Virus record (IMG/VR): IMGVR_UViG_3300013307_000675
Span: 1 to 30,126 of that record
Direction: 5' to 3' (one strand)
Source of the DNA: a virus
Length of the DNA: 30,126 nucleotides
Every line of letters begins with the position of its first letter. Position 1 is the first letter of the stretch. A model generated the notes under the pieces. The model was given only the letters and a program-made list of their open reading frames with translations, did no database searches and had not been told where the DNA came from. The position numbers and the translations under genes were made by a program. Positions 23,817 to 28,826 of the stretch are shown piece after piece.

Positions 23817-24374
23817 ATGCAATACCTTCACAACGATGCCGTTCTCGCGTTTGAAAACATCGAGTTTGATGTAGTGGATTTGCACAACGTGCCGTGGCTA
23901 AGGGGGCCCCAGATCGGGGCGGCCTTGGGGTATTCGAACGACCCCGCCAAAGACGTACGCAAGCTCTACGACCGCAACTCCGACGAGTTCACCGACGAGA
24001 TGACGCAGGTGGTCGACCTGCACACCGCCGGCGGCCGTCAGCCGGTACGCATCTTCAGCCCGCGCGGCTGTTACCTGCTCGGCATGCTGGCGCGCACTGC
24101 GCGCGCGAAGGCCTTCCGCGTGTGGGTGCTTGATGTATTGGAAGGGCGGTTGCCTCCGCGCCGGGTGGGCACGCTCACCATGCCGCAACAACTGGCCGCG
24201 CTGCGGTATCCGGGCGTGCTGGTCAAGGAGCTTGCCGCCGCTCGATCGCTTGCGGTGGCGATGGAGCTTTACGCCAACCTCGTACACATATCGCGGCCGT
24301 TGGGCATTCAGGCGCTGCCTATCGCCACGCTCGCTCCGATCGTGTCGCAGGGCAAATTGCCCGGCGTTGCTTGA
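23817..24374 (+). CDS. Phage antirepressor with BRO N-terminal domain
   Basis: 185 residues. Residues about 8-110 form a BRO-N domain: AVLAFENIEFDVVDLHNVPWLRGPQIGAALGYSNDPAKDVRKLYDRNSDEF, then IFSPRGCYLLGMLARTARAKAFRVWVLDVL. The C-terminal part (PQQLAALRYPGVLVKELAAARSLAVAMELY) is helical. Such proteins counter phage repressors or modulate early regulation. Good Shine-Dalgarno CAGGAG. Overlaps the next small gene (TGATG). Since the repressor lacks a cleavage domain, this protein is the best candidate for induction control. Confidence 0.88.
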   Translation: MQYLHNDAVLAFENIEFDVVDLHNVPWLRGPQIGAALGYSNDPAKDVRKLYDRNSDEFTDEMTQVVDLHTAGGRQPVRIFSPRGCYLLGMLARTARAKAFRVWVLDVLEGRLPPRRVGTLTMPQQLAALRYPGVLVKELAAARSLAVAMELYANLVHISRPLGIQALPIATLAPIVSQGKLPGVA

Positions 24375-25010: not shown

Positions 25011-25328
25011 ATGAACAATCGCTTCCCTTTCAATATCAACACCGACGATTTGCCCCGTATGACCGACCAGGCCGTCGCCATGTCCTGGTACATCGTCCAA
25101 ACGTGGCCGGGCGCGTTCGGTGACGCTGCCCTCTGTGACCTGGTGGAGCGCATCGGCCACGAGATCGTCAACCGGTGGCTGCGCGGTGCCCCCATTCCTG
25201 TCTGGCGACGCTCCGGCCGTGACTATTACTACGCCGAGCTGTCCCGCTTCGCGCGGTGGGATGGCATGCGGTGGGTGGCGCTCGATGTGGCGGCAGCCGA
25301 TGCAGCTTCTGTTGTGGGTGACGTGTAA
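25011..25328 (+). CDS. Hypothetical protein upstream of the primase-helicase
   Basis: 105 residues, unrecognised. Trp/Arg-rich: MTDQAVAMSWYIVQTWPGAF, LCDLVERIGHEIVNRWLRG, APIPVWRRSGRDYYYAELSRFARWDGMRW. The stop overlaps the primase start (TAATG), so the two are made together and it may assist replication. The start 25011 is chosen because it begins the coupled stretch; the longer frame open to 24399 overlaps three other genes and is an artefact. Confidence 0.72.
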   Translation: MNNRFPFNINTDDLPRMTDQAVAMSWYIVQTWPGAFGDAALCDLVERIGHEIVNRWLRGAPIPVWRRSGRDYYYAELSRFARWDGMRWVALDVAAADAASVVGDV

Positions 25329-28105
25329 TGGCTTCTATCGACGAGCTGAAGCAGCGCATCGACCTGCACGACCTGGCCGAAAGGCTGGGCATCAAGCGCG
25401 GCCCGGGTGGCGACAAGGCGCTCTATCACTCACCGCTGCACGCCGACAAGAACCCGTCGCTGTCCATCTTCGTCAACCACCCGACGCACGGTACGGGCTG
25501 GAAAGACCACAGCTCGGGCGAAGGCGGCTCCTGCATCGACCTGGTGATGCTGGCGCACGGCTGCGACGTGTCGGAGGCGGTGAAGTGGCTGCACGACGCC
25601 TACGCCATTCCGCGTGACGTGCCCACGGGCCAGCAGGAACGCCGCGAGAAGTCCAAGGCCGAGTACATTGCCGATCGCTGTCTCGCAGACCGCGAGCACG
25701 CCCGCGAGTATTTGAAGGGCCGCGGCATTTCGGATGCGGCCATCGATGCCGCTTTCCGCGCGCGTACGCTGGGCTACAACGCTTGGACCTGCTCACGCCT
25801 GCAGCCAGGAGAAGTCGGCTACGGCGGGCCTGCGGCCGCGTTCATCGTCAAGTCGCTCAACACCAGCCAGGTGGTGGCCGTCGACATGCGTTATCTGGAC
25901 CCCGCGCAGAACGGCAACGTCAAGACGCAGAGCCAGGGAGAGAAGACCGGGCACGGCTGGACCTCCGACCCCGCGCGCCTGGCGCGTGCCCGTCGTGTAT
26001 TCCTGGTCGAGTCTGCCATCAACGCGCTGTCGATCGACACGTGCAATCTGCCAGGCGCAGCGGCGTTTGCCCTGCGCGGCCTGTCCAACGTCGACGGCAT
26101 CGACTTCTCGTTCCTGCAGGGCAAGCAGTGCGTCATCTGCATGGACAACGACGAGCCGTTCGGGCGGGAGCACCCGCGTGCTGGGCAACGCCCTGGCCCC
26201 GAGGCCGCATGGGCGCTGTATGAGCGCCTGACGGCGTTGAACATCAGCGCCATGCTGGTCGACCAGACCGAATGGGTACGCGGCCTGAACGACGACAAAA
26301 CGTCGGTCGAGTCGATCAACGATGTGAACGACTACCTGCAAGAGCACGGCGCCGAGCGGCTTGCCCGGGCACTGGACAAGTTCGAGCCGTGGATCATCGC
26401 CGGCATGGCGGGCGACGAGACGCGTCGCGGCCGGCCGCGCGTCTATCTGCCCGCGCATGACTTCGCGCAGTACTGGCGCTTCCGCGTGAAGCCCGACTTC
26501 ACCAGCTACGTCACCAAGATGGATCGGCAAGGCGAAGGTGATGTCGAGACGCCGGTGTATGCAGACCTGTGCGGCTTCCGAATCGCCTCCATCAGCCGCG
26601 TGTCGGTGGCCAGCGCCACGTCCACTATGACGGGCGATCCGGACCAGTCACCCACCGTGAATTTCGCAGTGTCCGTGCAAACGCCGCGCCACGGTGCGAA
26701 GCTGATCCGCCGGGTGATGATGGACGACCAGCTCCACAACACCGACCTGTGGGGCAAATTCGGCCCCATCTGGATGCCTGCCCCGTTCAAGCGCATGGTC
26801 AACATCCTGGAGCGCACGGCCGACCTCGGGGCGCGTGACGCGGCCAACTTTGTCGGCCTGGCCTGGCGTGATGGCAAGTTGATCGTCAACGAGGGGCCGG
26901 ACTGCTATTTCACCGAGCCAGAGAAGCAGTGCCCGTACCACAACCTCACCTTTCCCAGCGGCCCGAAGCAGGACGCCCGCACAGTGCTGGAGGCCTTCCA
27001 AGCGACGTTTAAGCAGAACGCCGCCACCATCCCCCTGGTGTGGGCGCTGGGTGGTCACCTGAAGGCGTTGTTGGGCTTCTGGCCACACATGACGGTGCAG
27101 GCCGACAAGGGCGCGGGCAAGTCGACGCTCATCAAGCGCCTGGAGCGCGCTCTAGCCTTCACGATGTTCTCGGGCCAGAGCCTGCAGACCGAATTCCGGC
27201 TGCTCACCAGCGTGTCACACACCAGCCACCCCGTGGGCTGGGAAGAGCTGTCCGCGCGCAGGCAGGAGATCATCGACAAGGCCGTGGGTCTGCTGCAGGA
27301 GAACTATCAGTACACCGTCACCAAGCGCGGCACCGACATGACGGAATACCTCATCAGCGCGCCTGTGATGCTGGCCGGCGAAGACGTGCCCGTGCGCAGC
27401 CTGCTCGGCAAGCTGGTGCGCACTACGCTCACCGGCAAGAAGGGGCCGATCATGCCCGACGACCTGCCGCGCTTCCCCGTCAAGCAGTGGCTGCAGTTCC
27501 TGGCCAGCCTGGACAAGGCCGTGGTCTTGGCCGAGTACAGGAAGATCCACGCCTACTGCACGCGCATGGCCCGGGCCTCGGGCCAGGACGAGGGCGCCAA
27601 GCGCATGCTGACCAACTATGCGGCGGTCATGACGGCCTGGTACTACCTGGCGGAGTTCGCTGGCATCCACCACAGCGCCGGCAACTTCATCAACGACCTG
27701 CTGGCCGAGATGAATACGCACATCGCCGAGACCAGCGCCGACCGCGAGCCCTGGGTGTGGATCATGGAGACCGCGCTGTCGGAAGTGGACGCCGGCAAGT
27801 TCTCGTTCCCGCACGCCTTTGACACCGTGGAGGGCGAGCGCTGCATCCTGCTACGCACCAGCCACATCATGGACCACATCGCGCACAGCAACCCGTTGCG
27901 CGAGAAGTGGAACAGCCTGCCGGTGAAGTCCGACCGCGTGTTCAAGAAGCAGCTCTACGGCGCCGGTGTGGTCGCAGGTGAGAAGGAAGTCGAGCGCACC
28001 ATCTTCAGCCGTCGCGTGGCGCACCTGACGCCGATTTCGCTCACACGCCTGGCGGGCTATGGCCTGTCGGTCGCGGTTCGGGAGGATGCCCATGTCCATG
28101 CCTAA
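25328..28105 (+). CDS. Primase-helicase fusion (CHC2-like, Toprim, P-loop helicase)
   Basis: 925 residues. Order: CHC2-like fold at about 30-90 (SPLHADKNPSLSIF ... GEGGSCIDLVMLAHG) with most canonical zinc ligands replaced; Toprim at about 222-300 with E228 in VFLVESAINALS and D273/D275 in CMDNDE; a central beta-rich region; P-loop ATPase at about 575-720 with Walker A ADKGAGKST (592-600) and downstream PVGWEELSARRQEIIDKA and VMLAGEDVPVRSLLGKLVR. It should unwind DNA and lay primers at the phage origin, replacing the P2 gpA initiator. Starts in the upstream stop (TAATG). Overlaps the next gene by 14 bases. Confidence 0.9.
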   Translation: MASIDELKQRIDLHDLAERLGIKRGPGGDKALYHSPLHADKNPSLSIFVNHPTHGTGWKDHSSGEGGSCIDLVMLAHGCDVSEAVKWLHDAYAIPRDVPTGQQERREKSKAEYIADRCLADREHAREYLKGRGISDAAIDAAFRARTLGYNAWTCSRLQPGEVGYGGPAAAFIVKSLNTSQVVAVDMRYLDPAQNGNVKTQSQGEKTGHGWTSDPARLARARRVFLVESAINALSIDTCNLPGAAAFALRGLSNVDGIDFSFLQGKQCVICMDNDEPFGREHPRAGQRPGPEAAWALYERLTALNISAMLVDQTEWVRGLNDDKTSVESINDVNDYLQEHGAERLARALDKFEPWIIAGMAGDETRRGRPRVYLPAHDFAQYWRFRVKPDFTSYVTKMDRQGEGDVETPVYADLCGFRIASISRVSVASATSTMTGDPDQSPTVNFAVSVQTPRHGAKLIRRVMMDDQLHNTDLWGKFGPIWMPAPFKRMVNILERTADLGARDAANFVGLAWRDGKLIVNEGPDCYFTEPEKQCPYHNLTFPSGPKQDARTVLEAFQATFKQNAATIPLVWALGGHLKALLGFWPHMTVQADKGAGKSTLIKRLERALAFTMFSGQSLQTEFRLLTSVSHTSHPVGWEELSARRQEIIDKAVGLLQENYQYTVTKRGTDMTEYLISAPVMLAGEDVPVRSLLGKLVRTTLTGKKGPIMPDDLPRFPVKQWLQFLASLDKAVVLAEYRKIHAYCTRMARASGQDEGAKRMLTNYAAVMTAWYYLAEFAGIHHSAGNFINDLLAEMNTHIAETSADREPWVWIMETALSEVDAGKFSFPHAFDTVEGERCILLRTSHIMDHIAHSNPLREKWNSLPVKSDRVFKKQLYGAGVVAGEKEVERTIFSRRVAHLTPISLTRLAGYGLSVAVREDAHVHA

Positions 28106-28826
28106 CACGCTGGCCACTGTGCCTTCCCCGTTCCATGCGGCCGCAGGCCGCTTCGTCACCTGCGCCTTGGCGCACTTCAGTCTGCCGGCCTGTGGCCGCG
28201 TTGTGGCTGTGCCTGGCGCCCACGGCGTGCCGTGCGGCAGCGTCCTGCAGGTGACGAGGTACGGCGCCGGCGGCGACCTGGTTGCCGTCTCCCCCGCACC
28301 CCCTTCAAGAGAGAGCCGGCCGGGAGCCTTCGGCCAGGCGCTGGAAGCGAGGGGCACGCATAGATTTTTTCAATGGGGGTGCACGGGCAGCGCAGAAAAC
28401 CCGTGGAAATCGACCCTCGGTCGCGCTAAGTCCTTGATTCTGGAAGCGATGCCGTCCACAAGTCGGGGCCGATTTTCCACAGGTTGCGGCCGTTTTTCCA
28501 CGGGTCGCGTTTCGGCCGCTTGCCCCGCTGCCCCTTCTTCCTCTCTCTCTAAATCATTGAAAGAGAAGAAGAACGAACAGGGAGAAAGGCAGGCATGGCG
28601 CGCGCATGGGCATCCACAGGTTAGGGCCGGTTTTCCACGGGTTGGGACACCTGCCTATTTTTTACTCCACGGATTCCACAGGTCGGAAAGGGCTAACTTG
28701 TGGAAACCCGTGGACGAGAAATCTTTTGGAATCAATCGGTTATGTCTGTGCGGGGGTGCAACCACGGATCCACAGGTTGCACTGCGTGTGGTCCCCTCGC
28801 GGGCCGGAAAAAGGGGGGCGTCATGA
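28092..28826 (+). CDS. Hypothetical ORF running through the iteron region
   Basis: 244 residues if complete. The ATG at 28092 has a good ribosome site (GGGAGG) and overlaps the primase end; the TGA at 28824-28826 overlaps the next start as ATGA, just like true gene pairs in this phage. The first ~75 residues (NTLATVPSPFHAAAGRFVTCALAHF ... GSVLQVTRYGAGGDLVAVS) look protein-like. From about residue 100 the codons coincide with the CCACAGGTT/CCACGGGT repeats and give low-complexity sequence (GRFSTGCGRFSTGR). Perhaps a short real protein whose frame happens to stay open, or an origin-overlapping gene. No family recognised. Confidence 0.45.
   Translation: MSMPNTLATVPSPFHAAAGRFVTCALAHFSLPACGRVVAVPGAHGVPCGSVLQVTRYGAGGDLVAVSPAPPSRESRPGAFGQALEARGTHRFFQWGCTGSAENPWKSTLGRAKSLILEAMPSTSRGRFSTGCGRFSTGRVSAACPAAPSSSLSKSLKEKKNEQGERQAWRAHGHPQVRAGFPRVGTPAYFLLHGFHRSERANLWKPVDEKSFGINRLCLCGGATTDPQVALRVVPSRAGKRGAS
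28456..28779. repeat. Iteron array, putative phage replication origin
   Basis: At least nine copies of a core CCAC(A/G)GGTT. CCAC begins at 28456, 28477 and 28498 (exact 21-bp period) and again at 28614 and 28635 (21 bp). The unit CCACAGGTT-NN-GGCCG-N-TTTT-CCACGGGT occurs in both groups. A second composite, CCACGGAT(T)CCACAGGT, occurs at 28667-28683 and 28762-28778. Inverted copies lie at 28699-28714, and one outlying copy at about 28398-28409. TTTTCCACA at 28473-28481 fits the DnaA-box consensus TTWTNCACA. An AT-richer stretch (28549-28575) lies between the groups. Adjacent to the primase-helicase gene. The layout is that of a theta origin; no experiment is implied. Confidence 0.65.

Follow-up and report, generated by a model that had tools for sequence, protein, structure and literature searches.

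The viral record IMGVR_UViG_3300013307_000675 (positions 1 to 30,126; the whole 30,126-bp stretch is called the window here) encodes virion genes of the P2-like kind and carries a dense array of short repeats, or iterons, at 28399-28777, downstream of a gene for a primase-helicase. The array is very probably the replication origin of this P2-like Ralstonia/Burkholderia phage, and the initiator would be the adjacent primase-helicase, with its C-terminal winged-helix domain binding the iterons. This reading is carried by the anatomy of the array, by spacing conserved among relatives and by a covariation of iteron letters with residues of the protein, all apparent from sequence comparison. A near-identical primase (97%) is found in Ralstonia pickettii SSH4 (locus L082).

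Anatomy of the array and its putative initiator

The array combines sequence features of an iteron origin, namely short direct repeats at helical spacing, an AT-rich element and sites for an architectural protein. The iterons (CCACNNGT/CCACNNAT) occur in 12 copies within about 380 bp. When the 30-kb window was simulated 300 times with a first-order Markov model, the highest count in any 380 bp was 3, with a mean of 1.5. The first-pass annotation of this DNA had reported a 21-bp period, and the CCAC starts are indeed exactly 21 bp apart at 28456, 28477 and 28498, and again at 28614 and 28635. A composite that it described as common to both groups was recovered as roughly 32 nt at 28455, 28476 and 28613 (identity 81-84%), and a second one as the pair CCACGGAT(T)CCACAGGT at 28667/28676 and 28762/28770. 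Inverted copies begin at 28399, 28696 and 28706, and the AT-richer stretch between the groups (28536-28590) has 58% AT compared to 35% for the window, both as annotated. The DnaA-box-like sequence listed as a separate element has to be withdrawn, as TTTTCCACA at 28473 is part of the second iteron. Two IHF consensus sites within the array had been overlooked. They are the only exact matches in the window (28427 on the minus strand and 28730 on the plus strand), where 0.13 are expected per 30 kb; sites were judged by the E. coli consensus, on which any IHF function rests. An open reading frame at 28059-28826 overlaps the array. The two iteron groups lie in different frames of it and an open frame of any kind runs through the array in only 26/106 relatives, so the repeats are kept as DNA, as first proposed. 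The features are as follows.

25328..28105, plus strand: putative initiator of 925 aa, a DnaG-type (CHC2 zinc and TOPRIM) primase fused to a Cch/SaPIBov1-Rep-type helicase (Pfam, phrog_5629 and structure model)
27743..28072, plus strand: C-terminal winged-helix domain (residues 806-915), part of the primase-helicase gene and presumed iteron reader (covariation and model)
28399..28406, minus strand: iteron m0 (CCACGGGT), position 3 of which switches with class in relatives
28427..28439, minus strand: IHF consensus site "lead", AATCAAGGACTTA, exact to WATCAANNNNTTR and exact at the same place in 114/118 loci
28456..28463, plus strand: iteron p1, 28 bp after lead in relatives
28477..28484, plus strand: iteron p2, which includes the TTTTCCACA of the first-pass annotation
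28498..28505, plus strand: iteron p3
28536..28576, no strand: AT-richer polypyrimidine/polypurine stretch around TCTCTCTAAATCATTGAAAGAGAAGAAG (58% AT), candidate unwinding element, 116 bp past lead in almost all main-group relatives
28614..28621, plus strand: iteron p4
28635..28642, plus strand: iteron p5
28653..28664, plus strand: conserved GCCTATTTTTTA element, 109 bp past the polypyrimidine anchor in most main-group relatives
28667..28674, plus strand: iteron p6
28676..28683, plus strand: iteron p7, lineage-specific
28696..28703, minus strand: iteron m1
28706..28713, minus strand: iteron m2
28730..28742, plus strand: IHF consensus site "tail", AATCAATCGGTTA, exact to the consensus and exact at the same place in 54/118 loci
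28762..28769, plus strand: iteron t1
28770..28777, plus strand: iteron t2

The primase-helicase matches Toprim_3 and Zn_ribbon_DnaG in Pfam, and phrog_5629 over its full length. In a full-length structure model (predicted local distance difference test, pLDDT, of 85), residues about 104-360 align with DnaG/T7 primases at a Z of about 17. Residues 381-919 match Cch of the staphylococcal cassette chromosome mec (SCCmec; 5dgk, Z 19.7, Foldseek E 1.3e-10) and residues 381-920 match Rep of the staphylococcal pathogenicity island (SaPI) SaPIBov1 (8tch, Z 17.7). These matches span about 440 residues and assign the helicase fold; Cch and Rep rank first in the Foldseek list, with D5-type chains lower. 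The C-terminal part is modelled with pLDDT above 90. Modelled alone, this domain has the SaPIBov1 Rep C-terminal domain (8tch 452-561, Z 8.4) at the top of its PDB list, in agreement with the full-length match, and is thus predicted by fold to be a winged-helix origin-binding domain of the Cch/SaPIBov1-Rep type. A sequence search of the domain against the PDB returned nothing, and the DUF927 Pfam model matched none of 40 members at E 0.01. The primase-helicase resembles the Cch/SaPIBov1-Rep family by fold and layout and is not a member by sequence.

Conserved spacing and changing iteron words among relatives

Relatives were gathered with the primase as query and comprise 80 viral and 57 genome loci as well as known Burkholderia phages. 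Many loci are near relatives and their counts are not independent events; numbers of changes on trees, partly from quick trees, are the safer measure. Absence of the array from relatives with the same primase had been named as grounds for abandoning an iteron origin. The array is present in 115/115 loci with at least 60% primase identity and enough flanking DNA, and the three relatives in this range that lack it are contigs ending within 302 bp. In most main-group relatives, the lead IHF site, polypyrimidine tract, GCCTATTTTTTA and tail IHF site follow each other at 116, 109 and 77/78 bp. Iterons stand 28, 49 and 70 bp after the lead IHF site even in distant members. The iteron word is uniform within an array and differs between lineages (TCCACRGGT, TCCACGAGT, GCCACGAGT, GCCACGGGT, GCCCCNAGT, TCCTCGG and TCCCGCAA), with all sites changing together. 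The proposed conservation at the DNA level therefore holds for the spacing scaffold, while the letters change in concert between lineages.

The Burkholderia Peduoviridae KS5, KL3, AP3, Mana, KS14, FLC5 and FLC10 encode the same primase family at 67-76% identity, and the array was found in KS5, KL3, Mana, KS14, FLC5 and FLC10. Their iteron word is of the GCCACGAGT type or TCCTCGG, in contrast to TCCACRGGT. KS14 lysogenises as a plasmid prophage (PMC3091744). In KS14, FLC5 and FLC10, the scaffold carries TCCTCGG iterons and lies beyond parA, about 2.5 kb from the primase. FLC5 and FLC10 encode ParA, and the stretches examined carry no integrase annotation. Retention of the scaffold in KS14-type plasmid prophages gives independent support for an origin.

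A k-mer repeat count was swamped by GC-rich words. A search of a plasmid collection gave a single match, a 2.4-Mb B. multivorans replicon. When viral contigs were scanned for paired CCACRGGT sites, the criterion proved too loose and arrays near other genes came up. These are TCCACAGGT iteron arrays with IHF-like sites beside a tyrosine recombinase at L149:12233-12600 and L224:1708-1870. The DNA examined around them holds no primase, which would lie outside it if there is one, and these loci may belong to further phages or satellites that rely on this type of origin. Among distant relatives, L136 lacks the usual array; seven CCTTGTCA repeats, several of them 32-33 bp apart, lie downstream of its primase at a distance of about 4.0-4.4 kb. 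In the related distant loci L115 and L116, pairs of CAAGGTAG repeats recur at intervals of about 100 bp in the region 2.0-3.1 kb downstream from the primase.

Covariation of iteron letters with the C-terminal domain

Iterons and the C-terminal domain of the primase-helicase change together, letter for amino acid, as judged from the aligned loci. This covariation provides the link between the repeats and a predicted DNA-binding domain of a neighbouring putative initiator. In 16 loci, CCCC (or CCCT) replaces CCAC/CCAT at all aligned iterons. Across 107 primases, the only residues of 925 that separate the CCAC and CCCC classes are 820, 822, 843 and 898 (balanced accuracy 0.995). A nucleotide alignment of 41 loci (27 CCAC and 14 CCCC) has near-perfect class columns at these four codons and codon 816, at base 3 of 12 iterons and at some adjacent letters. 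Most of the spacer, the roughly 360 bp that separate the primase domain from the array, has no class-discriminating columns in this alignment. An association scan likewise confined class-specific 12-mers (difference of at least 0.9) to primase residues 801 to the end and the array; none were found in the 6 kb upstream, primase residues 1-800, the spacer or the downstream xis/int. Linkage as the sole cause of the covariation was rejected, because nearly all of the spacer lacks class-specific columns. A tree built from primase residues 1-799 requires about 11-12 changes of the base-3 class, at least 3 of them forced by well-supported branches. The closest pairs of opposite class (L041/L032 and L040/L029, with L032 a natural example of the CCCC class) differ at 23/925 residues, the diagnostic residues included.

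Further letters pair with further residues. Residue 899 (H/Y) pairs with base 6 (G/A) in 111/114 loci, with about 7-8 changes on the tree, and SDR at residues 868-870 pairs with a G at base 7 in 110/111 loci. Residue 891 (T/R/Q) pairs with base 0 (T/G/C) in 118/118 loci. In the numbering of the model, the recognition helix begins at 868-870, and 891 and 898/899 belong to wing strands. The second helix is capped by 843, and the first terminates at 820/822. A mutual-information ranking of 67 clustered loci gave a C-terminal signal that was clear for bases 0 and 7, weaker for 3 and 6, and absent for 4 and 5. The weakness is partly due to clustering at 97%, which dropped near-identical pairs of opposite class, and exact cross-tables were used instead.

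Several observations weigh against the array being an origin read by this domain. Below 60% primase identity, a recognisable array was found in only 4/17 loci. The base 0/891 pair changed only about twice on the tree and is thus weaker evidence than 118/118 suggests. Relatives with R843 and a changed recognition helix have C or T at base 3, hence residue 843 is not the sole determinant. The sole exception to the base-3 pairing, L075, combines a CCCC-type domain with a CCAC array; it is a deleted prophage remnant, in which the primase lacks about 32 N-terminal residues and the deletion is joined to other phage DNA. Joint inheritance by recombination could lie behind part of the covariation, though the sequence of the spacer does not follow class. 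For the C-terminal domain, a Z of 8.4 is by itself close to what searches of this type return as noise.

Alternative explanations and biological significance

The primase-helicase might bind the array as a control locus for copy number or incompatibility, like P4 crr, or as an autoregulatory operator of xis/int, with synthesis starting elsewhere. Covariation speaks for co-evolution of protein and site rather than for initiation, and the array is just upstream of xis/int in many loci, both of which suit such a role. The AT-richer tract flanked by iteron groups, the accompanying IHF sites and the KS14/FLC arrays beyond parA with no adjoining integrase argue the other way, and TCCACRGGT loci have no second cluster of the word within the 10-14 kb examined. 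We regard such a role as improbable. The xis-like helix-turn-helix (HTH) and integrase genes directly after the array could also suggest integrase arm-type or excisionase sites of a recombination module. Both iteron classes occur with both excisionase types (HTH17 with int, 61 CCAC and 8 CCCC; HTH26, 12 CCAC and 7 CCCC), and this independence led us to reject such sites. The downstream region without class-specific k-mers and the scaffold persisting in KS14-type plasmid prophages point in the same direction, leaving a recombination role very unlikely.

An origin driven by DnaA, with the repeats as divergent DnaA boxes, has a comparably slight probability. The relaxed box TTTTCCACA fits, and 33 Burkholderia-group relatives carry it 62 bp upstream of the lead IHF site and keep it when the iterons switch to CCCC. 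The canonical box TTATCCACA is present in 0/118 arrays, which hold only the relaxed TTTTCCACA, and the iteron letters become CCCC or CCTC, a change that a conserved host DnaA would not follow. DnaA boxes were accordingly rejected as the identity of the array repeats. The upstream TTTTCCACA may itself be a true DnaA box, as it is unchanged in both classes (19 CCAC and 14 CCCC loci, e.g., L026, L020 and L033); it is absent at this distance in the window. Repeats without function, as by-products of coding sequence or low complexity, could be suspected from the open reading frame overlapping the array in the window. The excess of 12 sites over a chance maximum of 3, the conserved spacing and the concerted word changes contradict this, and a coding explanation was rejected for want of a conserved frame. 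The comparative data already exclude this possibility, and we give it almost no weight.

The proposal of an iteron origin for the adjacent primase-helicase, made in the first-pass annotation, thus fits all comparative evidence. We infer the following sequence of events for binding, IHF action, melting, helicase loading and the start of replication within the array. The C-terminal winged-helix domains of an oligomer would bind the 12 iterons as a positioned multimer, and IHF bends at the two flanking sites might help to wrap the complex. Melting would occur in the AT-richer tract that separates the iteron groups, the self-loading, SaPI-Rep/Cch-like helicase half would load there, and the same protein would unwind the DNA and make primers.

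SaPI Rep uses its C-terminal domain to bind iterons lying immediately downstream of the gene that encodes it (PMC7581432). SaPIBov1 Rep shares with the present system a self-loading helicase, a C-terminal origin-binding domain and an iteron origin downstream of the gene (PMC7581432), a likeness seen here by fold match. The present system differs by the N-terminally fused DnaG-type primase, the IHF sites in the scaffold and its carriers, which are beta-proteobacterial phages, the element being a P2-like phage and not a satellite. SCCmec Cch is the best match of the helicase half, but is a separate helicase without fused primase on another kind of element. P4 alpha binds its origin, where short repeats serve as sites. 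Primase and helicase are fused in this single initiator protein (PMC7145576), as in the system described here, in which the helicase half matches Cch/SaPIBov1 Rep best and one array is seen instead of separate ori and crr. The virion genes recall P2 with its rolling-circle origin in gene A, yet the gpA family PF05840 has no match in the window record. The replaced replication module suggested earlier is therefore upheld, although it is a general feature of a known phage group and not a peculiarity of this phage: KS5, KL3, AP3, Mana and KS14 share the primase. A BRO-N antirepressor-like gene lies at 23817-24374, between the repressor region and the primase.

A search of the open literature surfaced no origin in published work on KS14/KL3/KS5 and AP3, and no publication on the origin of this primase family. 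Iteron origins read by a helicase C-terminal domain are already known from SaPIs. What is new here is that the helicase is fused to a DnaG-type primase, that IHF sites belong to the scaffold, and that word and reader have switched repeatedly as a matched pair. Iteron words might be kept diverse by selection for compatibility, similar to plasmid incompatibility groups, an idea we advance tentatively and hold to be somewhat doubtful. Co-infecting or co-resident P2-like phages would swap or mutate the C-terminal domain and array as a matched pair and thereby escape cross-recognition. The co-resident prophages L083 and L086 of Burkholderia pseudomultivorans LMG 26883 have different words (GCCACGGGT and GCCACGAGT types), as incompatibility predicts; the words of L084/L087 in B. 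lata are not clearly different. If such selection acts, the pairs of 891 with base 0, 899 with base 6, 868-870 with base 7 and 843/898 with base 3 would represent a natural, decodable winged-helix recognition code.

The array and its neighbouring gene provide a testable origin and initiator for a widespread group of P2-like phages, in which a DnaG-type primase is joined with a SaPI-Rep kind of initiator. The more than 100 natural variants are an unusually clean data set for joint changes in origin and initiator specificity. The same variants could show whether phages use array and reader as an incompatibility system.
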